From Runella sp. (GTDB lineage: Bacteria > Bacteroidota > Bacteroidia > Cytophagales > Spirosomataceae), in assembly GCF_027484545.1 (NCBI RefSeq), contig NZ_JAIXST010000105.1, forward strand, positions 1 to 36,496: a stretch of 36,496 bases of DNA, given 5' to 3'. Position 1 is the stretch's first letter; each line of letters starts with the position of its first letter. Below the pieces are notes generated by a model that ran no database searches, was not told the DNA's origin, and saw only the letters and a program-made list of their open reading frames with translations. Shown here in pieces: positions 5,397 through 19,896 of the stretch. A program made the position numbers and the translations under genes.

Positions 5397-6353
5397 TTAC
5401 AGTTGTTCAACAGAAGCCAGAATTTTATCCAACAGACTGTCAAAATCGGGTTGCCCCTTGTAATACAACGAAGCCGTTTCTTTATATCTCTTTCGGAATT
5501 GCGCTCTTAACGCAGGGTCTCTCAATAAAAAAGCTTCATTTTCCCTGATCGGAATTTCTTTGTCCTTGGCAGGAAACCGCTCGTTTTTGTGGGCGTGGTA
5601 GGCGGGTGTTCCGATAAATTCCTGCACGTCGGGGTGGTCTAACAAACGCGCAACATCGTAATATTGCCTCATTAAATTCGGACGTATCCCTGCCCCGTTT
5701 TGCATCTGACGAAACTTCGTCGCAATCGTTTGAAGCTTTTCGACAAAAGTGTAACCGAGGTGATAACAAGGAATATCAACGGCACGGTTATCCAAAATCT
5801 CAATCGCAGGATTTCCCTTAACTCTTTCATAGGCCCACGAACTTATCACACGTTTATGGTTTGGAGTCACCGTATCGAAACCCGCTTCCAACAGAATTCC
5901 TTCCTTTACTCCGCTCACAGCGTCGGTTTGGCTTTGGTAGTACAAGCGTATGCCGCCGCTGCGGTAATAATCTGTATCGTCAAAGGCATGATCCCGCTCA
6001 ACGGAAACAATCCCCTCTATCTGAATGGTCTCGGCCAGCCAATCATAAAATTTCTTTCGCGCTTGGGCAGTCTTCGGGTTCGTGTTTTTGGGGTTCTCGT
6101 TGATGTTGAATTCTCTCGGAGGAGTGATATGAATGTCGATATCCTCCGAAAATCGGTCAATGATGCCATAGCCCTTCGATAAGGACGTGCCACCTTTCAA
6201 CTCAAAATCAAATCCCTGTTTTTTCAGCCCGTTTAAAACGTGCATGATCCAATAATCTTTTTCAATCAGGCCTGCCAGGATTTGGGTTTCCTCTTCCAAA
6301 ATCCGTAACAGTCCTGAAAAACCGTTGTGTTGATGCAGATAGGGAAGCGACAT
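5397..6353 (-). CDS. abiEii: AbiEii family nucleotidyltransferase toxin
   Basis: 318 residues, full length for the family. An N-terminal EKDYW (31-35) precedes the nucleotidyltransferase signature GGTSLSK (54-60) and the metal-binding RFSEDIDIH (67-75). The C-terminal half carries the helical HxYDxARL-like region (QYYDVARLLDHPDV). AbiEii toxins transfer nucleotides and are bacteriostatic; the pair gives abortive phage defence and stabilises mobile DNA. It is translated 6 bases after its antitoxin gene in the same transcript. All key catalytic residues are present, so it should be active. Confidence 0.9.
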   Translation of the reverse strand: MSLPYLHQHNGFSGLLRILEEETQILAGLIEKDYWIMHVLNGLKKQGFDFELKGGTSLSKGYGIIDRFSEDIDIHITPPREFNINENPKNTNPKTAQARKKFYDWLAETIQIEGIVSVERDHAFDDTDYYRSGGIRLYYQSQTDAVSGVKEGILLEAGFDTVTPNHKRVISSWAYERVKGNPAIEILDNRAVDIPCYHLGYTFVEKLQTIATKFRQMQNGAGIRPNLMRQYYDVARLLDHPDVQEFIGTPAYHAHKNERFPAKDKEIPIRENEAFLLRDPALRAQFRKRYKETASLYYKGQPDFDSLLDKILASVEQL

Positions 6354-6359
6354 AGGGGG

Positions 6360-6941
6360 TTATATCTCCGTTTGCTGTATGAAGGGAGCCAGTAACTTTT
6401 GGGTTTTCACGTTGCCATATTCCGCGATGGCCTCCCGCAGTTTTTCTTCATCCATGGTCATGGCTTTAGAAAAGATACGTTTGAGAACGGCTTTTTGATC
6501 TTCGGCCAGCGTATCCAGATTGTTGACCAGATCCACCAGTAAAAATTCTTCGGTTACTTTTTTTGGAAAGTGAGGTTTGATGCGAAAATCAAAGTTGCGA
6601 TTACCCAATTTAAACTGCCCGTGGCGTTTATGATTATAGACGGTGCGTTGGTTATAGAGCTGCGTCGTACCAACCCCTAAACGGTTATAGGCGTTGGGGG
6701 ACGTGACCAAAAAACGATCATCTTTCAGAAAGCTGCGGATCAGGATTTCTTCGTTGGGCGGTAGTTGCCCAAATACGGTTTGCTCCGGAGCATAGTATAA
6801 TCCTTGGGAGAGTTTTTGCAGCGTTCCCTCTTCCAATAGTATATCTAAATGGCGGTCAACGGACTTAGACCATCGGGTCAAATCACTTCGGCGGTACACC
6901 TTGCCCGTCTCCAAATGTTGTTTTAATTCATCCAGTTTCAT
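6360..6941 (-). CDS. AbiEi-like antitoxin (DUF6088 type)
   Basis: 193 residues. The N-terminal winged helix (about 1-55) includes YRRSDLTRWSKSVDRHLDIL and the wing QKLSQGLYYAPEQTVFG; then come LPPNEEILIRSFL and the RLGVGTTQLYNQRTVYNHKR segment typical of antitoxins paired with AbiEii-type toxins. It should bind its own promoter and neutralise the toxin at 5397-6353. It is unusual in having a strong Shine-Dalgarno (GGAGGGG at 6948-6954) in a genome that mostly lacks them, suggesting recent acquisition. A dyad at 6992-7010 is a candidate operator. Confidence 0.85.
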   Translation of the reverse strand: MKLDELKQHLETGKVYRRSDLTRWSKSVDRHLDILLEEGTLQKLSQGLYYAPEQTVFGQLPPNEEILIRSFLKDDRFLVTSPNAYNRLGVGTTQLYNQRTVYNHKRHGQFKLGNRNFDFRIKPHFPKKVTEEFLLVDLVNNLDTLAEDQKAVLKRIFSKAMTMDEEKLREAIAEYGNVKTQKLLAPFIQQTEI

Positions 6942-11173: not shown

Positions 11174-12157
11174 CTAATCATTTTGTACCAATTCCCACTT
11201 TATGGAGGCCAATCTCTGCCTGATCCGTTTCAATGTTTGTACTACGGCTTCTTCACGGGGTAACTCACCGAAAACCAGAGTCTTGAATGAACCTTGGTAC
11301 GTAACCCTTAACTCCAGCCATACACGGTCTAAATCACTAAAAATTAAAGCCTGTACCGGAGGATTATACAGCCAGTCTTTATTCGTTCTGAAACTCAATT
11401 CATCGTCTTTGGCGACTTTGTACAGCATTCCATCAAATTCACCGGAATCAAAAAAATCGCTGATGTTTCGTTGCGCCAACAGCAGGTGCAAATCATAAAC
11501 GTGGCGTATTTTATTTTTCAAATCAATGATTGGCGTTTCGGTATACGAAAACCGAACCAGACTCATGATTTTCTCACACACAGTTCGTGTCGGTGCCAGG
11601 ATGGGTACTTCAAAAGGCAAAAGTCCATATTCCTCCGCTATTCCCTCCTGCCCTTTTGCCTGCATCATCTGATACACAAAAGAACTGACTTTGCCTTTAA
11701 TCAAAGGCTCAGAGGAACCCAGCCAACTTGATTCTACGATAATCAGATCCCTCACCTGCCCAAATTCTCCGTCAAACATTTTGGAATAAGAATGGGCTGT
11801 TTTTCGTATCATCCCTTTTTTGTTGGTAATTCCGTCCACTTCCAGTTCAGGCAAGAATTCTGAAACGGCATTGCTGATCCGTTTCAGGCGTTCCTTTAAT
11901 TGATTGGCGGAAAGATTCGGGTCTTTCAACAACACCAAATCAATATCTTCCGAAAATCTGCTGATAAAGGAAAAGCATTTGGCCAGGGCTGTACCACCTT
12001 TAAAAACGGTAAATTCCGACAAAGGGCTCGTAAAAATACGTTGCAGAGTAAACGTGACCCAATAATCTTTTTCCACGTAAATCTCGGGCAAATTCAAATA
12101 CTCTGCCGTAATTGAGATCGCATCTGTAAACAGGTCCGGGTTTTCGTGTAATTTCAT
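11174..12157 (-). CDS. abiEii: AbiEii family nucleotidyltransferase toxin
   Basis: 327 residues, complete. VEKDYW (28-33), FKGGTALAK (52-60) and RFSEDIDLV (67-75) form the nucleotidyltransferase site. The IAEEYGLLPFEV and CEKIMSLVRFSY blocks follow, and a KIRHVYDLHLLL helix ends the conserved part. It should add nucleotides to an RNA acceptor and halt growth when the antitoxin is lost. The start overlaps the antitoxin stop by 4 bases (ATGA type), giving translational coupling. The fragment at 3-530 is a relative of the same subfamily, at roughly half identity. Confidence 0.92.
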   Translation of the reverse strand: MKLHENPDLFTDAISITAEYLNLPEIYVEKDYWVTFTLQRIFTSPLSEFTVFKGGTALAKCFSFISRFSEDIDLVLLKDPNLSANQLKERLKRISNAVSEFLPELEVDGITNKKGMIRKTAHSYSKMFDGEFGQVRDLIIVESSWLGSSEPLIKGKVSSFVYQMMQAKGQEGIAEEYGLLPFEVPILAPTRTVCEKIMSLVRFSYTETPIIDLKNKIRHVYDLHLLLAQRNISDFFDSGEFDGMLYKVAKDDELSFRTNKDWLYNPPVQALIFSDLDRVWLELRVTYQGSFKTLVFGELPREEAVVQTLKRIRQRLASIKWELVQND

Positions 12158-12882
12158 TGAATGTTCCAGTTGGAGGCCGTTTTCAGCAGAGACTTATTGA
12201 ATCCCAGGGTAAACTTAGTAAAAGGATTAAGGCTTTCTTTGAGCGGGGTCAAATCCAACCCGCTTTGAATTTCTTCCAAAACGGCTCCCAATAATGCCCT
12301 TACCCGTGGCGGATATAACAGGGCATAGGTGATCATTTGGCTTTGCCGTTCGTTGCTCAATGCCTTAATGCGAGTTTTGAAAATGGTCAGTGCCGACCGT
12401 ATATCCAGATCCGGGATTTGTTTTAGGTCCTTCATGGCATCCAGAAAACCCAGCATTTGATAATTATCTTCGGATACATCGGCGTAGCTTTTGACGGAAC
12501 TGACTTTGATGAAGCTGATTCCGCTCAGATTACGACGGGACCGACCGGCGATTTGAATATCGGATGGCACCTGAGTGGTCAGTCCCAGTTGATTATAGAG
12601 CCTTGTACCTGTGATGTAGGCTGTGCGCTGCTCCTTTTGGTACAGGTAAGGTTTAAGTAACTCCGCCTCATTGGGTCGTTTTCGACCAAAAACGGTCATT
12701 TTGGGCTTATAAAAGCGCCCTTTAGAGACCCTGCTGACCAATCCTTTCTTCTGCAACCGTTCCAGCGCCTTGGCCGCCGACGCAAACTCTTCCCGGCCAA
12801 TGGATAACCGGTCATACCCAAAGATTACATCCTCGGGCATATTCTTTATCGTTTGGGCTATTTTTTCAGCGACACTTATCAT
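12154..12882 (-). CDS. AbiEi-like antitoxin (DUF6088 type)
   Basis: 242 residues. A winged helix (about 1-60) contains IGREEFASAAKALERLQKKG and the wing VSRVSKGRFYKPKMTVFG. A conserved middle follows (RPNEAELLKPYLYQKEQRTAYITGTRLYNQLGL), then an all-helical C-terminal half that probably binds the toxin. It should repress its own operon at the TGTCAA dyads upstream. First gene of a two-gene operon with the toxin at 11174-12157. The ATG at 12882 lies only 4 bases after a TATATTTG box, so the message may be almost leaderless. Confidence 0.88.
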   Translation of the reverse strand: MISVAEKIAQTIKNMPEDVIFGYDRLSIGREEFASAAKALERLQKKGLVSRVSKGRFYKPKMTVFGRKRPNEAELLKPYLYQKEQRTAYITGTRLYNQLGLTTQVPSDIQIAGRSRRNLSGISFIKVSSVKSYADVSEDNYQMLGFLDAMKDLKQIPDLDIRSALTIFKTRIKALSNERQSQMITYALLYPPRVRALLGAVLEEIQSGLDLTPLKESLNPFTKFTLGFNKSLLKTASNWNIQ

Positions 12883-12886
12883 TCTG

Positions 12887-12957
12887 CAAATATAGCATAT
12901 GTGCCAAAATATGTCAAGTTTTGTGTTTTATTTACTTGACAGCATAAAATATGTCAA
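12887..12957 (-). promoter_or_regulatory. abiE promoter with TGTCAA operator half-sites
   Basis: On the minus strand the -7 box TATATTTG is at 12887-12894, with a TTG element 20 bases upstream inside an ACTTGACA site. Three half-sites are visible: TGTCAAGT (12912-12919), its inverse ACTTGACA (12934-12941), and TGTCAA (12952-12957). The first two form an 8-bp dyad with a 14-base spacer and overlap the promoter, as expected for AbiEi autorepression. Confidence 0.65.
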
Positions 12958-13106
12958 CGCTTATCTCCCTGGGCTACTTTACCACTTGATAAATATATGA
13001 CGATTTATTTGCAGGCTTACTGAAACTCCATTACTTTCCAATCATAATAACTTTAACTGTTTTACATTGGATTTTATGTGCCACTAAGCTTTCTTATATT
13101 TTTATA

Positions 13107-14168
13107 ATGACGCCAGAACAACTGACACCTGCAAAATATTTAGAAGGAAAAATATTACCCAATTATTGGATTGTACAAGAACCCATAACTAAACATCCAA
13201 ATGGATCGGGAGGCAATTTTTCGTATTCATACAATGTCCTAAATCAGAATACGGGTCAGCAAGCTTTTTTGAAAGCATTAGACTTTTCAAGGGCTTTAAG
13301 TGCGGCTGATCCTTTAAAGGCTATGTCTATTTTGACTAATTTGGTCAATTATGAGCAAAATCTATTAGAGATTTGTCGCAGTAAAAGACTAAGCAGAATT
13401 GTTTCTCTTATTGATTCAGGAAACTATCCCGCCTCAAATGGCGGCATAATTCCAGTTCCTTACTTTATTATGGAACTGGCTTCAGGGGATATTTACAACC
13501 AACTGGACTTCTCTCAAAAGATAGACCATTTATTAAATCTCCAAATTCTGCACAGTATTTCGGCCGCACTATTTCAACTACATTATAATGGGATAGCTCA
13601 TCAAGACTTGAAACCTTCTAATATATTAATTATCGAAAAAAGTCCTCATAAGTTAGGAGACTTAGGAAGAGCCGATTTAAGGAGTCAGCCCCCGCCTTAT
13701 GCAATAATGGATTTTGCCGGTGATCCGTCTTATGCGCCTCCGGAAGCTCTATATAAATCTGTACATCAAGATTGGATATTTCGTCGAATTGCGAGCGATG
13801 CTTATCAACTGGGCAGTATGATCGTTTTCCTTTATACACAGCTTAATATGACTGCTGTAATGAAAAATCATATATCTCCGAAGCATGATTGGAATAATTG
13901 GACGCAAACTTATAGGGAAGTTCTTCCGTATTTATACGTTGCCTTAGAAAAATCAGTTGATTTTTTTAAAGATCAAGTGGACGATAAAGAATTAGCCAAA
14001 GATTTAAGTGATATTATATTTCAACTTTGCGATCCTGATCCGACTAAACGAGGACATCCAAAATCAATCAATAAACGATTGAGTACGATAAGTTTAGAAA
14101 GGTACATTACAATTTTTGATCGATTGTTAAAAAACTATAGGGTAAAGAATTTTAGAACAAAAATTTAA
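13107..14168 (+). CDS. Serine/threonine protein kinase
   Basis: 353 residues, soluble, kinase domain only. Landmarks in order: a glycine-rich loop GSGGNFS (33-39), the ATP-binding Lys56 in AFLKAL, a hinge FIMELASGD (about 120-128), a catalytic loop AHQDLKPSNIL (164-174; HQD in place of HRD), GDLG (184-187; DLG in place of DFG) and APPE (210-213). The Asp, Lys and Asn needed for catalysis are present, so it is probably active but a non-RD kinase. Its stop is one base before the start of a TPR protein gene, so the two are surely co-expressed. The defence-island setting suggests a phage-triggered kinase; targets are unknown. Confidence 0.88.
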   Translation: MTPEQLTPAKYLEGKILPNYWIVQEPITKHPNGSGGNFSYSYNVLNQNTGQQAFLKALDFSRALSAADPLKAMSILTNLVNYEQNLLEICRSKRLSRIVSLIDSGNYPASNGGIIPVPYFIMELASGDIYNQLDFSQKIDHLLNLQILHSISAALFQLHYNGIAHQDLKPSNILIIEKSPHKLGDLGRADLRSQPPPYAIMDFAGDPSYAPPEALYKSVHQDWIFRRIASDAYQLGSMIVFLYTQLNMTAVMKNHISPKHDWNNWTQTYREVLPYLYVALEKSVDFFKDQVDDKELAKDLSDIIFQLCDPDPTKRGHPKSINKRLSTISLERYITIFDRLLKNYRVKNFRTKI

Positions 14169-14169
14169 G

Positions 14170-15711
14170 ATGGCTGGCTGGATTGCAGATGACAAAAAAA
14201 GAAATGTTATTCCAAGATGGAGAGATTTTACTCAAACTCTTAAATTGGGGGAACTTAGCCCAATCCATACTCTTGGATCTAAGCACTCCGATTTTATACA
14301 TTCGGAATTCCACAAAAAGAAAATTATAGATTGGCAAACGGAACGAACAATCAAAAATGCGATTGAACTCTTAAATTCGTCCTATGTAGTAGATGATTTA
14401 GAGCAATCTCATGAAGCAGCACTTTATCTTAATAATCAAAAAAAAATAACTTCCCCTTCAGTTGGGATATTAGCAGAGCGTATATTAGAACCTTATATCG
14501 TTGAAAATTCACTTTCCCAACCAAGTAACTTTAAAGATTTAGATTCTGTTCTTAGGCCACTGGTTAAGGATTTGAGGATATCTATTAATAATAACCTAAA
14601 TAATTCTATCAGTTGGGTTGAACTTGCACGTTTATATCTTATCTTAGGTAAAGAAAGAGCTGCTGAGAGATGCATATTAGTCGCTACTCAACTTTCACCT
14701 GATAATAGATATATAAGCAGAATAGCATCAAGATTTTTTACTCATACCGGTGATTATAAAAAGGCAAAACAAATTTTAAAGTCAAATATTGCCTTTAATG
14801 TAGATCCTTGGCTACTTGGGGCTGATATCGGTATCTCTTCACTCCAAAGAAAAAGTTCATTTCATATAAAAAAAGCAAGGGAACTGATTTTGTCTAAAAA
14901 TTACTCTCCCTTCGAATTGAACGAGCTATTATCAGCTTTAGCTACGGTAGAGCTAAATGCAGGCAGTATTAAAAATTCAAGAAAGCTATTCAATCAATCC
15001 TTGGTAACACCCAACGATAATTCTGTCGCTCAAGCAGTATGGGCTATGAACCATATAAATAATCTTAATTTTTCTAATTCTGCCTTGGATGAAATTCCTA
15101 ATATATATGAAGCTAAAGCTTATCATTATTTTAATGCTAAGCAATGGGAATCAACAATGTCAAATACATTGCAATGGTTTGTTGATCAACCATTTTCAAG
15201 AGACCCTGCGGGTTTTGGATCTTTCATAGCATCCTCTATTTTAGAGAAATATGATGATGCAGTAAAGCTATGTACATATGGCTTAAAAGCAACACCCAAT
15301 GATTTTACGTTATTGAATAATTTGGCTTTCTCATTACTAAAAATGAATAATGTAAAGGATGCCGGTACAGTCATCCATAAAATACATATAGGAACATTGG
15401 ATGAAAAACAAAAAGCTGTTTATCTGGCTACAAAAGGGTTATTTATGTACAAGAACGGCTTTTCAGACCAGGGAGCAAATTTGTATAAAGAGTCCAGTGG
15501 ACTCGCGGGGAAAATAAAAAACAAAAAACTGCAATTGCTTTCAGATTTTCACCATTTATCTATTCAACTGGAAATTGACGGATTTCCGGACGATAAAGTC
15601 GCGAAAGTTGATCAACTTGCAAAGCAGTTGGCAACCCTTGATGAGATTTATTTAGTAGATTTAGTCAATAATTTAAAAAGGCGTATTGAGGACTATAGAA
15701 CTAAACTTTGA
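14170..15711 (+). CDS. TPR-repeat protein paired with the kinase
   Basis: 513 residues, all helical, no signal peptide. TPR-like helix pairs are seen at ISWVELARLYLILGKERAAERCI, FTHTGDYKKAKQILKSNI, ELLSALATVELNAGSIKNSRKLF, and FTLLNNLAFSLLKMNNVKDAG. The first 110 residues are a separate region with a basic start (WIADDKKRNVIPRWRDF). TPR domains bind partner proteins or peptides, so this is likely a sensor, scaffold or substrate for the kinase encoded one base upstream. Its last 11 bases overlap the convergent protease gene. AT-rich like the kinase gene, unlike the flanking AbiE genes. Confidence 0.75.
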   Translation: MAGWIADDKKRNVIPRWRDFTQTLKLGELSPIHTLGSKHSDFIHSEFHKKKIIDWQTERTIKNAIELLNSSYVVDDLEQSHEAALYLNNQKKITSPSVGILAERILEPYIVENSLSQPSNFKDLDSVLRPLVKDLRISINNNLNNSISWVELARLYLILGKERAAERCILVATQLSPDNRYISRIASRFFTHTGDYKKAKQILKSNIAFNVDPWLLGADIGISSLQRKSSFHIKKARELILSKNYSPFELNELLSALATVELNAGSIKNSRKLFNQSLVTPNDNSVAQAVWAMNHINNLNFSNSALDEIPNIYEAKAYHYFNAKQWESTMSNTLQWFVDQPFSRDPAGFGSFIASSILEKYDDAVKLCTYGLKATPNDFTLLNNLAFSLLKMNNVKDAGTVIHKIHIGTLDEKQKAVYLATKGLFMYKNGFSDQGANLYKESSGLAGKIKNKKLQLLSDFHHLSIQLEIDGFPDDKVAKVDQLAKQLATLDEIYLVDLVNNLKRRIEDYRTKL

Positions 15712-16585
15712 GATAAATATTGGTTTTTGAACGGATCATCTCTCCTTTAGGAACTATTAAAACAAAAATGTTATAGGTATTGTCAAAGTAATAATAATTA
15801 CAATCTACGGACTTCATATCTTGGGAGAGAATTTGTATTTCACTTTTATAATGTTTTCGGCCAATTAAATAATCCAGTACAAAAGGTACTTCAATACCAA
15901 GTTCACTTCCCCAGGCTATCGTTCCCCAATCTTTGGTAAAAGAGTTAGATTGGAAAGAGTTTCGAACATACAATTTTGGCAAATTAAAGGTTTTGTCCTC
16001 ATCTTTTTTTAAAACTAATAAAGCGCACCTTTTTGGATTTTTTTCAACATATCTTCTTAAGGTAGAGTGGACAGAAGCCCCAAAAGTCTTTGAAAGCAAA
16101 ATTGCGGAATTCATTTCCAGTGGAAGTTCTGCCATTTTATCACTGAATATTCCGAGTTGAAAAAGTGAAGCAGAAGCAAATAAGTTTGCTTCTGCTTCAA
16201 ATAATTCATTAATATCAGGATCCAGTGTTTCGTCATCATCCAAACAGTTCTGTAATTTTTCCTGCCAAGGACAGAGCTCATGACCGGCTTCGTGTAGTTT
16301 GACAAACGTTTTTCTTACACCAAGCTGTGTTAAATCAAGGTATACTGTTTTCTCTTTACGGTCCAATACACCTCTAAGTTTTATCATTCCTCTTCTGACC
16401 TGCATATCGGCTTTATTGAAAAATGAATTATTTATTTTGCTTAAATCCACCCCTGAACTGACTTTCAAATTGGCATAGGCAAGTATCTTATCAACAGGAG
16501 TTGGAAAAATCCCCAATGCTTTACTGCCGGATAAAGTGTCCAAAGCAATATTTTCAACTGCCTTGATTTTGTGTTCACTTAGCAT
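15701..16585 (-). CDS. ImmA/IrrE family metallo-endopeptidase (CapP-like)
   Basis: 294 residues. The zinc protease motif HEAGH is at 98-102, with a downstream acidic ligand in EAEANLFASASLF (about 130-142), as in COG2856 proteases. The N-terminal helix resembles DNA-repressor-associated peptidases, and the C-terminal third (about 190-294) is a separate domain that could sense a ligand. Such enzymes cleave a partner XRE repressor. The gene overlaps that partner by 11 bases. CapP, the CBASS-associated relative, responds to single-stranded DNA; similar sensing here is inference. Confidence 0.87.
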   Translation of the reverse strand: MLSEHKIKAVENIALDTLSGSKALGIFPTPVDKILAYANLKVSSGVDLSKINNSFFNKADMQVRRGMIKLRGVLDRKEKTVYLDLTQLGVRKTFVKLHEAGHELCPWQEKLQNCLDDDETLDPDINELFEAEANLFASASLFQLGIFSDKMAELPLEMNSAILLSKTFGASVHSTLRRYVEKNPKRCALLVLKKDEDKTFNLPKLYVRNSFQSNSFTKDWGTIAWGSELGIEVPFVLDYLIGRKHYKSEIQILSQDMKSVDCNYYYFDNTYNIFVLIVPKGEMIRSKTNIYLKV

Positions 16586-16913
16586 CTCTGAAACGCATAT
16601 ACTTTAAAAAATTTAACAGTTCCTCTTCTTCTTCCGTTGTCAGATTTTCGGAGGATAGTGCAAAGTGTCTTTCCAGCTTGGTGGAATCTTTCTTTTTCTC
16701 GACTATGCCTGCCATAACCATCAAATCATCAAAACTGATGTTGAAAAGTTCTGACAACTTGTACAAGGTGTTCGCAGACGGTTTTTTGATTTTATCGTTT
16801 TCTAACTGGCTTAAATAAGCGTTAGAGATGCCGGATTGTATTTCTACTTCTCTTAATGTAAGTCTTTTAAGTTCACGGGCTTCCCGTATCACTTTTCCTA
16901 CGGTCTTTTCCAT
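16575..16913 (-). CDS. XRE family transcriptional repressor (CapH-like)
   Basis: 112 residues from the ATG at 16913; an in-frame TTG at 16937 would add eight residues but is a poorer start. The helix-turn-helix spans about 5-60 (VIREARELKRLTLREVEIQSGISNAYLSQLE, then KPSANTLYKLSELFNI), and the linear C-terminus (SSENLTTEEEEELLNFLKYMRF) is a likely protease-sensitive dimerisation tail. It is co-transcribed with the metalloprotease and divergent from the ubiquitin-like operon, with dyad operators between. It probably represses both directions until cleaved. Confidence 0.88.
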   Translation of the reverse strand: MEKTVGKVIREARELKRLTLREVEIQSGISNAYLSQLENDKIKKPSANTLYKLSELFNISFDDLMVMAGIVEKKKDSTKLERHFALSSENLTTEEEEELLNFLKYMRFRDAK

Positions 16914-16953
16914 GGTAGTATTGATTTTTTTACACAAAGTAAATAAATCTAAA

Positions 16954-16977
16954 TTTACAAAGCAAGCGCTAAGTAAA
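16954..16977. promoter_or_regulatory. Dyad operator candidate for the XRE repressor
   Basis: The 24-base element has the symmetric pattern TTTAC-N2-AGC-N4-GCT-N2-GTAAA. It lies about 40 bases upstream of the repressor start, in the position of its promoter (a TACTTTG-like box on the minus strand lies between), so binding would shut off the repressor and protease genes. Confidence 0.55.
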
Positions 16978-17058
16978 TATTTGATGTATCAAAAATTTGC
17001 TTAATACAAATCTTTGATTGTTAATCTCTTGCTAAATATACGAAAAAATAATTTAGAT

Positions 17059-17095
17059 TTTGCTTGCTTCACCAAGCAAAACGTCATTACCTTTG
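17059..17095 (+). promoter_or_regulatory. Promoter of the ubiquitin-like operon with overlapping dyad
   Basis: TACCTTTG (17088-17095) matches the TAnnTTTG -7 box, with TTG at 17064-17066 giving a 21-base spacing. A perfect 8-bp dyad, TTTGCTTG (17059-17066) and CAAGCAAA (17073-17080), covers the upstream element. Related half-sites occur at 16996-17003 (TTTGCTTA) and 17029-17036 (TTGCTAAA). The expected start of transcription is near 17100, about 20 bases before the ATG at 17123. Confidence 0.6.
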
Positions 17096-17122
17096 CATCG
17101 AAACAATTTCATTTAATACACT

Positions 17123-17794
17123 ATGAAACCAAACACAAATGCGGGAGTTGACACAGGAGTTGCCACCCCGCTTCCAGTAACCTTCCAAGATCAAAAATTT
17201 ACTTGGGGTGGTCAGTATGCAAATGGTAAAGAGCTTAAGAAGCTTTTCGGAGTTCCTGTCGATCAAGCGTTGTTTTTATCTCTTGTAGACCCATGGGATG
17301 ACCAATTGATCACTGATGAAATGATCATTGACTTGGCACGTCCAGGTGTCGAAAAGTTCTATGTTCGCCTGCCGCTGGAATACCAACTGGATGACAAGAA
17401 GCTTTCATGGGATAAACCGTTCATTACAGGGCTTGAACTCCGTCAAATTGGTGGAGTGGAAGTTGAGGATGAAATCTGGTTGAAGATTCCAAAGCCCTAT
17501 TCGGACGAATTAGTAAAAAATGAGATTCGTATCGACTTGACTCGTCCCGAAGTCGAACAATTTTACGTCGTTAAGGCTGAGGTAGTAATTACGATTAACG
17601 CTATTGAGCACAAGGTAAAACGAGGCACCTACAGCGTAGCTCAACTCAAAAAAGTTGGTAATATTAAAGCTACTGACGAGTTAGATCAGATAAAATCAGG
17701 GCATGTACTGGTTCCTTTGGAAGATGATGCTTCTGTCGAAATCAAGGGTTGTGAGCAGTTTGTTTCTCATAAAAGAGACGGATCTTCCTCGTAA
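17123..17794 (+). CDS. Multi-ubiquitin protein (tandem ubiquitin-like domains)
   Basis: 223 residues with three beta-grasp repeats. Repeats 1 (about 20-85) and 2 (about 86-152) share an ITG-ELxxxxG-V-xDxxLWL pattern and end in matching segments: DLARPGVEKFYV and DLTRPEVEQFYV. Repeat 3 (about 153-215) is shorter and more divergent (VVITINAIEHKVKRGTYSVAQL) and ends CEQFVSHKRDGSSS. This is the multiubiquitin family that heads prokaryotic ubiquitin-like operons. A single Gly followed by SSS at the C-terminus suggests the JAB domain encoded two genes on trims the tail to expose Gly for E1 activation. First gene of the operon, just after the regulated promoter. Confidence 0.88.
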   Translation: MKPNTNAGVDTGVATPLPVTFQDQKFTWGGQYANGKELKKLFGVPVDQALFLSLVDPWDDQLITDEMIIDLARPGVEKFYVRLPLEYQLDDKKLSWDKPFITGLELRQIGGVEVEDEIWLKIPKPYSDELVKNEIRIDLTRPEVEQFYVVKAEVVITINAIEHKVKRGTYSVAQLKKVGNIKATDELDQIKSGHVLVPLEDDASVEIKGCEQFVSHKRDGSSS

Positions 17795-17809
17795 AATATC
17801 GTTTGCGTA

Positions 17810-18151
17810 ATGGCGTTTCCTGATAATCAAATCGCCGGATTAAAGCTTATAGCCCCTTCGTTGAGCACTGCCGACGAAGGAGGCTATACCTATATCCGAA
17901 TAGAAAATCTCCGGCTACCGAAGGGGTGTCAGCCGGAGCTCGTAGATGCTTTACTGTGCCCTACCCCCAGAGAAGGTTACAACTCACGCCTTTTCTTTGC
18001 ACAGCCAATCACCGGTGGCCCTTCCCGTAATTGGAATGGAAATATCCGGGTACTGAACCAAAACTGGTATGCGATTTCTTGGCAAACCGAGCTGGGAAAG
18101 AGCTTGGCAGAAATACTTTTAGTTCACTTAGATGCTTTTCGAACAAGATGA
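17810..18151 (+). CDS. Prokaryotic E2-like protein (Prok-E2_E type)
   Basis: 113 residues. Signature segments are LPKGCQPELVDALLCPTP (about 37-53), GYNSRLFFAQ (57-66), NWN (74-76) and a C-terminal ISWQT...ILLVHLDAFR. These fit the prokaryotic E2 family E, small ubiquitin-conjugating proteins found between multi-ubiquitin and E1 genes. Cys40 and Cys50 are the candidate acceptor cysteines; which of them, if either, carries the thioester cannot be told from sequence. It starts 15 bases after the multi-ubiquitin stop, and its stop overlaps the E1 start (ATGA). Confidence 0.8.
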   Translation: MAFPDNQIAGLKLIAPSLSTADEGGYTYIRIENLRLPKGCQPELVDALLCPTPREGYNSRLFFAQPITGGPSRNWNGNIRVLNQNWYAISWQTELGKSLAEILLVHLDAFRTR

Positions 18152-19476
18152 AGAAAAATGATATTCATTTTCGTATTCCGCAAAGGTTGCATCAACAAAT
18201 GCTTGATGACTTGCGGCGACCACACCCGTTCGCTTTTGAGAGAGTAGGTTTCTTGTATACTACCTCTGTGGAAATGCCTGATAAAACAATTTTGATTATT
18301 GCGACCGAATACACTCCGGTTGAAGATACTCATTACATTAATGATTATTCTGTCGGAGCAAAAATTAATTCCGACGCTATCAGGACTGCCATGCAAAGAT
18401 CACTTAAAAATCAAACCGGGTGTTTTCATGTCCATATACATGACCATCGAGGTATACCTACACCAAGCCGCACGGATATCAAGAGCTTATCTGGCGTAGT
18501 AGAAAGCTTGAGTAATGTTGCTCCCAATGAGGCCAACGGCTATTTGATTCTAAGCCGTGACTCCTTTTATGCAGCCGTAAAAGTAAAGGGTATTGTTAGT
18601 TTACAAATGCCGAAAATTATTTCGGCTATTGGAAAACCAATGTTGTTTTCATTTGAAAATACATACTTACCTGTGAAAGCCATATACAATCGCCAATCCT
18701 TTCTCGGCCCTGCTTCCCCTTTAATTTTTGATACAATTAAAGTTGGTATTGTAGGCTATGGCGGTGGCGGCTCTCACATAGGGCAACTGTTGGCTCATAT
18801 TGGTATAAAAAATATAGTGGTATTTGACGGAGATATTGTTGAAGAAACTAACTTAAATCGATTAATCGGAGCTTGGCCGCCAGATGCTGTAAATAAAGCG
18901 GCTAAGACAAAAATTGCCAAAAGGACAATTAAGAAAATAAATCCGAAAGCTAATGTAGTAATCTGTAGCGAACGATGGCAACAGCGTCCGGAACTTATTC
19001 ATTCTTGTGATGTAATGTTTGGAGGAGTTGATTCCTATGGCGAACGAGATCAGTTGGAAGCGGAATGTCGTCGTTACTTGATACCTTTACTTGATATAGG
19101 AATGGATGTTCATCAATCGGAAGATTCTCCGTTTTCAATGTCAGGTCAAGTTATTCTTTCAATGCCTGGATCTGCCTGTATGCGTTGTTTTCAGTTTTTA
19201 ACGGAAAAGAAACTTGCATTGGAAGCGGCAAAGTATGGGAAAGTAGGCGGTCGCCCTCAAGTAGTATGGCCCAATGGAGTATTAGCTTCTACCGCAGTGG
19301 GTTTATTTGTAAATCTTGTAACCAATTGGGCAGAGGATCAAACCGGTCCTGCCTATTTGGAATATGACGGTAATACTGGCTTAATTCGGGAACACATTAG
19401 AGCGAGTTTTACAAAGGGCGATTGCTCGCACTATCCGTTAGAAGCAGTGGGCAAGCCTAAATTTATAGCTTTGTAA
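18148..19476 (+). CDS. JAB deubiquitinase - ThiF-type E1 fusion
   Basis: 442 residues from the ATG at 18148, which overlaps the E2 stop as ATGA; a longer in-frame ORF upstream lies wholly inside the E2 gene. Residues about 1-165 form a JAB/JAMM metalloprotease with Glu31, the HxH (94-98) and Ser107-xx-Asp110 of the zinc site. Residues about 190-440 form an E1: the nucleotide loop GYGGGGS (203-209), VFDGDIVEETNLNR, and a CMRC cysteine pair plus a C-terminal GDCSHYP for thioester or zinc binding. One protein thus processes (or removes) and activates the ubiquitin-like protein. Related fusions are known in prokaryotic ubiquitin-like operons. Confidence 0.88.
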   Translation: MKKNDIHFRIPQRLHQQMLDDLRRPHPFAFERVGFLYTTSVEMPDKTILIIATEYTPVEDTHYINDYSVGAKINSDAIRTAMQRSLKNQTGCFHVHIHDHRGIPTPSRTDIKSLSGVVESLSNVAPNEANGYLILSRDSFYAAVKVKGIVSLQMPKIISAIGKPMLFSFENTYLPVKAIYNRQSFLGPASPLIFDTIKVGIVGYGGGGSHIGQLLAHIGIKNIVVFDGDIVEETNLNRLIGAWPPDAVNKAAKTKIAKRTIKKINPKANVVICSERWQQRPELIHSCDVMFGGVDSYGERDQLEAECRRYLIPLLDIGMDVHQSEDSPFSMSGQVILSMPGSACMRCFQFLTEKKLALEAAKYGKVGGRPQVVWPNGVLASTAVGLFVNLVTNWAEDQTGPAYLEYDGNTGLIREHIRASFTKGDCSHYPLEAVGKPKFIAL

Positions 19477-19529
19477 GTTGAAAAAGCGGATTCAACAAAA
19501 TAGTTCTGAATCCAAGATTGCCGCGATGC

Positions 19530-19577: not shown

Positions 19578-19608
19578 AGGCAGTTACAACTTTTGGTCGT
19601 AACTGCCT
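19578..19608 (-). terminator. Terminator downstream of tRNA-Phe
   Basis: AGGCAGTTAC (19578-19587) pairs with GTAACTGCCT (19599-19608). Read on the minus strand it lies 10 bases beyond the tRNA 3' end and is followed by TTTTTCTTTGG. Confidence 0.7.
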
Positions 19609-19618
19609 GATTTTGAGG

Positions 19619-19691
19619 TGGTGATGGACGGAATCGAACCGCCGACACAAGGATTTTCAGTCCTTTGCTCTACCGACTGAGCTACATCACC
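19619..19691 (-). tRNA. tRNA-Phe (anticodon GAA)
   Basis: A complete cloverleaf can be drawn: acceptor GGTGATG / CATCACC, D arm GCTC...GAGC, anticodon arm AAGGA-CTGAAAA-TCCTT with anticodon GAA, and T arm GGCGG-TTCGATT-CCGTC. It is 73 bases with discriminator A. CCA is not encoded. Its 3' end faces the defence island. Confidence 0.95.
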
Positions 19692-19896
19692 ATCGTTGTC
19701 GGTACTTCCCGTGATTTGGGAGTGCAAAAATGGGAGTTTCGATTTTAAAACGCAACTATTTTCTAAAAATTTATTGCAAAAATAATTGCTTAAAACGACG
19801 GTGGAGTACTTAGTGGCTTGTTTATCAAGGGATTTAGTAGTGTATTTTTCTTGAAAATTTTTTGCGATTTATTGTAAACAGTCGACCAATTATGAT

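Follow-up and report, generated by a model that had tools for sequence, protein, structure and literature searches.

A Bub-type ubiquitin-like operon beside a CapH/CapP-like repressor-protease pair in Runella, with a possible sigma-factor form of the switch in its relatives

Bub operons encode bacterial ubiquitin-like (Ubl) tagging systems in which conjugation proceeds by oxyester. CapH and CapP, a repressor and protease pair, first became known from the cyclic-oligonucleotide-based antiphage signalling system (CBASS); among comparable pairs, DdrO/PprI control a radiation regulon and ImmR/ImmA an integrative element. Bub itself is said to have been defined by Ye (2026) and Gong (2025). Here we examine a Bub-type operon that stands divergent from a CapH/CapP-like pair in a 36,496-nucleotide stretch of Runella sp. 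(contig NZ_JAIXST010000105.1; the whole stretch is called the window below), together with the relatives of both parts in other genomes and plasmids.

The combination has precedent. Chambers et al. (EMBO J 2026; PMC13373217) report CapW or CapH+CapP with 219 of 544 Bub operons, and describe ssDNA (single-stranded DNA) as the activator of CapP, which then cleaves CapH; PprI likewise senses ssDNA and cleaves DdrO (PMC10904395). CapH+CapP with Bub is a kind already described, in June 2026, and the window holds a further case. The first-pass annotation of this DNA had presented CapH/CapP logic on a ubiquitin-like system as its own proposal and had taken it that Bub acts in phage defence: the linkage that it relied on is conserved, the novelty is lost to a combination already in print (PMC13373217), and protection from phage by Bub is stated by Chambers et al. 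as not demonstrated. An older relative, the polyUbl operon, is listed as row 6e by Iyer, Burroughs and Aravind (2006; PMC1779556).

The regulator pair and the ubiquitin-like operon form a real, recurrent unit, and we consider it likely that the operon is held off by the CapH-like repressor and switched on when the CapP-like protease cleaves that repressor. Linkage was counted in 25 genomes holding 27 multi-ubiquitin loci and 46 matches to M78 proteases, with proximity defined as within 3 kb and with any partner admitted, whether separate, fused to a helix-turn-helix (HTH) domain or beside a sigma-like gene. An M78 gene lies that close to 16 of the 27 loci against 0.05 expected under uniform density, an excess of about 300-fold measured against an expectation that is lenient because M78 and Bub genes both cluster in mobile or defence regions; the window's own protease, which scores below cut-off, raises the count to 17. 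Two loci (G214 and G224) entered through the E2 search rather than the multi-ubiquitin search, and without them the figures are 14 of 25, or 15 with the window. The counts leave out L018 (an E1 fragment), L083 (an E1 fragment lacking upstream genes), L034 and L042 (both on the plasmid of L033) and short search loci that duplicate longer ones. The 17 linked loci comprise three with separate XRE and M78 genes (the window included), six XRE-M78 fusions, seven of a sigma kind and one other (L076), which puts an XRE together with an M78 at 9/27 loci.

Conserved linkage of an XRE gene and a COG2856-type protease gene to multi-ubiquitin operons was the point on which the first-pass annotation had staked its proposal, and it is found in several phyla. 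Pairs of XRE and M78 genes face multi-ubiquitin operons divergently in Alphaproteobacteria, in a cyanobacterium, in further Bacteroidota and in the upstream cluster of a gammaproteobacterium, and a Deinococcus has one next to a ThiF operon; outside the window's own operon subfamily such pairs adjoin multi-ubiquitin operons in Oscillatoria, in Methylomagnum (with two genes between) and at the Bacteroidota loci L069 and L070. A plasmid search with the window's protease returned 25 records. Nine plasmid neighbourhoods, most of them high in the match lists, were inspected (eight matched by the window's protease and one by the L038 protease, in a record that the window's also matched), and seven of these carry an XRE gene with a divergent ThiF operon (L085-L089, L091, L093). 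In six of the seven a multiubiquitin protein is annotated; at L085 its place is taken by two small genes without names. Enrichment, reverse search and tree give computed, independent support that ubiquitin-like tagging operons adjoin damage-switch proteases in several phyla.

By fold and sequence, the three-gene operon is placed with Bub (BubA/BubB/BubCD). Like the Citrobacter system (PDB 9ea4, 9ea8, 9eae, 9eav; multi-ubiquitin 9cd2, 9d59, 9d5b), it consists of a multi-Ubl protein, a UBC-fold E2 and a JAB-E1; it differs from that system in sequence, the E2 and JAB-E1 being far from their Citrobacter counterparts (12% and 16-18% identity in fold alignments), and in having no DUF6527 gene after it. 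Between position 19477 and the tRNA at 19617 there is no plus-strand open reading frame (ORF) of at least 60 residues, and near the operon there is none resembling DUF6527; the gene is also absent in the other members of the window's operon subfamily (the L033 stretch stops short of its E1) and present in 23/26 multi-ubiquitin loci outside it. The multi-Ubl protein matches Pfam Multi_ubiq (E 6e-17) over two stretches and, in the PDB, 9cd2 (E 4e-8), 9d59 (E 5e-5) and BilA 8u38 (E 5e-4). The last of these raises the question of type II Bil; the E2 and JAB-E1 match Bub first in the Foldseek searches. The three beta-grasp repeats called in the first-pass annotation hold for two by Pfam; the third, C-terminal domain escapes Pfam and is supported by the relative at L017, whose 108 residues leave room for one domain (E 2e-5), and by matching a profile of the C-terminal parts against repeats 1-2 (probability 83%, E 9e-6), over just 35 columns. 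The C-terminus (17780-17794 in the window, and twelve relatives) reads G-x-S-[SA] in 13/13, with the Gly fourth from the end, a pattern that suggests trimming before conjugation.

No Pfam, NCBIfam or PADLOC model matches the E2 at E 0.1, and the name Prok-E2_E that it had first been given is dropped for lack of such a match; a profile search of the PDB gave nothing convincing (best E 0.046, unrelated). Its predicted structure (mean predicted local distance difference test score, pLDDT, 86.6) finds Citrobacter BubB 9eae_C as first Foldseek match (TMq 0.77, E 6e-3; next match E 0.97), and Cys50 is invariant in 5/5 aligned relatives. An operon subfamily with an E2 that none of these model collections names is thereby singled out. 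The E2 occurs in 4/222 genomes of the family, the window's included, and in 2/395 of the phylum, one being the window's own and the other a chance match full of stop codons, and it matched no phage record. The JAB-E1 fusion that the first reading had named stands: ThiF is clear (E 5e-28), BubCD 9ea4 matches residues 194-326, part of the E1 (E 1e-9), and the first eight Foldseek matches are all BubCD (471-496 columns, E 4e-17 to 3e-14). The JAB domain itself reaches PADLOC E 0.012 only, with H-x-H-x8-S-x-x-D in the 4/4 JABs aligned; the structural model is weak (pLDDT 63.5) and its superposition on BubCD poor (template modelling score 0.37, root-mean-square deviation ~17), and it therefore supports the architecture, not details. 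Row 6e of the 2006 survey (PMC1779556) likewise combines two or three Ub-like domains in tandem with an E2/RWD-like protein and a JAB-E1 fusion; it differs in that its E2-like protein is described as inactive, whereas the window's E2 has the invariant Cys, and in a metal-binding gene, Y, of which the window's operon has none.

Table 1. Coordinates of the switch and tagging operon in the window, and of comparable loci and cassettes elsewhere
Feature	Position	Strand	Remarks
CapP-like M78 (ImmA/IrrE, COG2856-type) metalloprotease, 294 residues	15701..16585	-	HEAGH and a downstream Glu; C-terminal region past the protease core
CapH-like XRE repressor gene	16575..16913	-	ATG at 16913, stop at 16575; alternative upstream TTG at 16937 possible
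Candidate operator TTTTGCTTG-N6-CAAGCAAAA	17058..17081		across the operon promoter; 9-base perfect arms
Candidate Bacteroidota -7 element TACCTTTG (TAnnTTTG)	17088..17095	+	sole TAnnTTTG in 16915-17122, both strands
Multi-ubiquitin-like protein (BubA-like), 223 residues	17123..17794	+	probably three beta-grasp domains; C-terminus ...RDGSSS
E2/UBC-fold protein (BubB-like), 113 residues	17810..18151	+	
JAB deubiquitinase-like domain fused to E1 (BubCD-like), 442 residues	18148..19476	+	
Subfamily loci with XRE+M78			window; L036 Bradyrhizobium; L037 Methylocystis; L038 Methylovirgula; L040, L081 Rhizobium leguminosarum plasmids
Subfamily loci with sigma cassette			L015, L016, L024, L033, L041
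Sigma-like + small + CapP-like M78 cassette	L024:9722-11614		divergent from multi-ubiquitin
Sigma-like + small + CapP-like M78 cassette	L041:7170-9129		divergent from multi-ubiquitin
Sigma-like + small + CapP-like M78 cassette	L033:1853-3815		divergent from multi-ubiquitin
Sigma-like + small + CapP-like M78 cassette	L015:5057-6850		divergent from multi-ubiquitin
Further cassette	L022:8458-10275		same layout
Further cassette	L027:7712-9568		same layout
Further cassette	L068:8128-9917		same layout
Further cassette	L097:3990-5786		same layout; Pontibacter; first gene judged by layout
Cassette of the same layout	L098:3880-5696		divergent from a Pycsar operon; Chryseobacterium plasmid; first gene annotated sigma-70

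The gene set first read from the sequence (multi-ubiquitin, E2, JAB-E1, divergent XRE, HEAGH protease) is all present, as are the 15-base gap between the multi-Ubl and E2 genes and the ATGA overlap of E2 with JAB-E1 (18148-18151); the range then given, 16575-19476, omits most of the protease gene (15701-16585). The XRE and protease genes share 11 bases (16575-16585), and 209 bases (16914-17122) separate the pair from the operon that it faces.

By fold and sequence, the regulators are placed with CapH/CapP, in agreement with the first reading. The XRE protein matches Pfam HTH_3 (E 9e-13) and, in PADLOC, HTH_VI first (E 1e-13) and capH second (E 3e-12); it is 38% and 42% identical to the XRE proteins of L036 and L038, with SNAYLSQ in the HTH common to all three. 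The protease matches PADLOC capP (E 2e-11) and Pfam Peptidase_M78 (E 0.002, below the Pfam cut-off), and a profile built from the proteases of 16 such loci returns CapP 7t5t first (E 9e-30), then IrrE/PprI orthologues; H98, E99, H102 and E130, the HExxH and downstream Glu, are invariant in 16/16. An XRE repressor with an overlapping M78 protease gene, divergent from an operon, is what the window has in common with CapH/CapP (7t5t); it differs in that its protease sits in a divergent clade and the target operon is Bub, not CBASS. The verdict that this is not CBASS stands, no CD-NTase model being among the PADLOC matches listed for the nine genes of 11174-19476, the range scanned. DdrO/PprI (IrrE) and ImmR/ImmA have the repressor and M78 protease in common with the window. 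The protease profile finds IrrE, and the XRE profile has DdrO, the ICEBs1 Xre regulator and 7t5u within its 16 PDB matches; CapK/CapS differs in relying on kinase-repressor chemistry, against the proteolysis proposed here. Within its family the window's protease has matches in 12/222 genomes, and the next best after its own (E 4e-148) falls to E 8e-8; being nearly alone there, it suggests import.

Characterised relatives suggest how such a switch would run. The XRE protein would bind the divergent promoter region and repress both the tagging operon and itself; ssDNA from damage or phage replication would, by analogy with CapP and PprI, activate the protease; and the activated protease would cut the repressor, allowing expression of the operon. 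The E1 would then adenylate the C-terminal Ubl domain, with the JAB trimming that domain first or removing it later, and the Ubl would be passed from E1 to E2 and on to targets. The benefit could be phage defence or a general stress response. This mechanism, as the first-pass annotation had sketched it, appears to be the best available, its phage-defence premise being unproven.

The switch might work as described and yet answer something other than DNA damage, either another ligand of the protease's C-terminal region or a need to tune basal levels. The protease is divergent and that region has no characterised ligand, and for PprI, whose GAF-like domain is needed for activation by ssDNA, other ligands are discussed nonetheless (PMC10904395). 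Characterised CapP and PprI, on the other side, both respond to ssDNA, and other Bub operons are found together with CapW and CapK/CapS, both responsive to DNA damage (PMC13373217). We regard a different signal as unlikely.

Less likely again is that the pair is a plasmid- or prophage-maintenance module of the ImmR/ImmA type with a mobile element as its target, the Ubl operon using an adjacent promoter that is not regulated. The PDB matches of the XRE profile include DdrO and the ICEBs1 Xre regulator, many relatives lie on plasmids, and the two remaining neighbourhoods of the nine (L090 and L092) have an XRE gene and no adjoining ThiF operon. The M78 tree, which has some long branches elsewhere, speaks against it: the window's protease falls in a ten-row clade (support 99/97) in which every member has an XRE partner and adjoins a multi-ubiquitin or ThiF operon. 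Finally, control of the kinase-TPR pair (13107-15711), or of nothing beyond the regulators themselves, with the Ubl operon brought alongside by island shuffling, is very improbable: although the protease and TPR genes end tail to tail with an 11-base overlap in a defence island that includes AbiE pairs, the kinase and TPR genes run towards the protease gene from a start of their own, XRE/M78 pairs are divergent to multi-ubiquitin operons in several phyla, and 0/3 other copies of the kinase-TPR pair show an XRE or M78 annotation within 4 kb (the plasmid gene tables being incomplete and the number small). That comparison is small because the TPR gene occurs in no other genome of the family (1/222, the window's alone) and three plasmid relatives were found; the kinase-TPR pair was set aside as an unlikely regulator target. 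The pair itself matches the PADLOC candidate system PDC-M71A/B very strongly (E 2e-122 and 5e-151).

Repressor cleavage as the switch of the Bub-type operon remains the reading that we prefer, and several observations weigh against it. The protease is a divergent CapP, with 30-38% identity to its nearest kin. The arm length of the candidate operator was reached by 27/400 simulated sequences, and imperfect palindromes at 16988-17018 and 16923-16949 score at least as well as the one at 17058-17081; no convincing operator common to the window, L036 and L038 was found on inspection, and the window's palindrome is not significant. (The adjoining -7 element is named from TAnnTTTG, which we take to be the Bacteroidota consensus.) Ten of the 27 multi-ubiquitin loci have no nearby M78 gene (three with AAA and S8 genes, one with WYL, six other or unclassified), and one of the operons in that position, L019, belongs to the window's own genome and has AAA and S8-protease genes upstream. 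Clustering of M78 and Bub genes in islands raises the chance of adjacency above the uniform expectation. The 15 loci of the window's operon subfamily divide into six with XRE+M78, five with a sigma cassette and four without M78: L017 (on a short contig, with an XRE gene alone), L035 and L080 (toxin-antitoxin type with a RES domain) and L039 (CapK/CapS-like). At the last, from Sphingobium, the possible CapK/CapS pair lies upstream on the same strand, with matches to HATPase_c (E 7e-4), MarR (E 1e-4) and a STAS-like model (E 0.02), none of which reaches its cut-off.

Most worth following up is the sigma arm found in the close relatives. The operon's nearest kin (L024, L041 and, on plasmid pSLIN02, Spirosoma linguale L033/L034; JAB-E1 62-64% identical to the window's), along with L015 (Verrucomicrobiota) and L016 (Acidobacteriota), have in the divergent place a sigma-70-like gene of ~200 residues, a small gene of 120-180 residues and an M78 gene; for L016 the sigma-likeness of the first gene is not confirmed. 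The cassette M78 proteins match PADLOC capP far better (E 4e-52 for L024, 1e-66 for L022) than the window's does (2e-11). Sigma models of NCBIfam match five of the seven first genes scanned, L078 above cut-off (TIGR02937, E 8e-13) and L027 (3e-8), L024 (2e-7), L068 (2e-6) and L015 (2e-6) below the curated cut-offs, with no such match for L022 or L072. A Pfam sigma region is found above cut-off in L078 only and below it in L027, with none in L015, L022, L024, L033, L068 or L072, and the joint profile finds the extracytoplasmic function (ECF) factor SigL (E 0.003). The layout varies at its edges: L078 has the sigma and small genes without M78, and at L072 (1861-4103) the small protein and M78 are fused in one protein of 543 residues (small part E 3e-9, M78 E 7e-11) beside a sigma-like gene. 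The C-terminal part of that fusion also matches a model of the antitoxin DarG (E 2e-6, below cut-off).

The small gene overlaps or abuts the protease gene as the XRE gene does in the window, from which we infer that the small protein would be both the substrate of the protease and an anti-sigma factor. An alternative identity, a CapH tail, was rejected: the PADLOC capH match is weak (L022, E 0.0035) and the profile comparison gives a probability of 0.2%. On the E1 tree, which has several long branches and eleven rows left untrimmed, the window's E1 falls inside a group of sigma-type members (100/99) despite its XRE regulator, and regulator type needs seven changes over 29 rows, three or four of the changes being forced by well-supported branches. 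With its E1 among sigma-type members and its protease in an XRE clade, the window's operon would have swapped its regulator arm, and the relatives suggest, at the level of gene content and sequence, both regulator swapping and a protease/anti-sigma form of the switch. We judge it evenly balanced whether the CapP-type protease stays constant as damage sensor for many Bub operons and at least one Pycsar operon, with a partner that is exchanged (an XRE repressor that is cut, or an anti-sigma factor whose cutting frees a sigma-70-like factor), the window having exchanged one arm for the other. If the sigma form is true, one protease would serve two opposite logics, repressor removal and activator release, on the same operon. 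No paper that pairs an M78 protease and a sigma factor next to immune operons was found by title among the matches listed, in a search outside which lay most subscription papers and all preprints; in PMC13373217 the phrase 'RNA polymerase sigma' is absent, and 'sigma factor' appears 12 times, the inspected uses being about anti-sigma factors. On the Pontibacter plasmid, umuD and a Y-family polymerase gene (L097:5952-7672) lie directly downstream of the cassette M78 gene, a hint of damage response.

Further features of the tagging operons can be noted. JAB and E1 form one protein in the window, L024 and L041; at L015, L016, L017 and L035-L039 each has its own gene, and the two genes overlap. 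The E1 of S. linguale is found behind a Tn3 transposase gene, and ~47 kb of the circular plasmid separate it from the E2 and multi-Ubl of that species. The window's E1 reads ...AAKYGKVGG..., with Tyr-Gly kept in the 8/8 subfamily members aligned, and one BubCD entry in the PDB carries Y370F; a Tyr-based step may be common to the window's E1 and BubCD. The second multi-ubiquitin operon of the window's genome, L019, lies on contig C343, and a multi-ubiquitin gene occurs at ~46000 in the Runella slithyformis plasmid NC_015694.1 and on the same-genus genome G003. A pair of AAA ATPase and S8 subtilase genes stands beside multi-ubiquitin operons in L019, L025 and L074, and downstream in L036 and L038; in place of or beside the damage switch, it is possibly a further Bub component.

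Around the operon, a tRNA-Phe gene lies on the 3' side (19617-19691), and stretches of 14-30 bases from 19601-19700, searched as an attachment site, have no exact repeat elsewhere in the window. Beyond the protease gene, tail to tail with it, come the kinase/TPR pair and then an AbiEi/AbiEii pair. AbiE-like genes occur three times in this one island (30-530, 5397-6941 and 11174-12882), the last pair called by the PADLOC scan and the other two by resemblance of their translations, and L036, L038 and L091 also have annotated AbiEii genes close to the operon.

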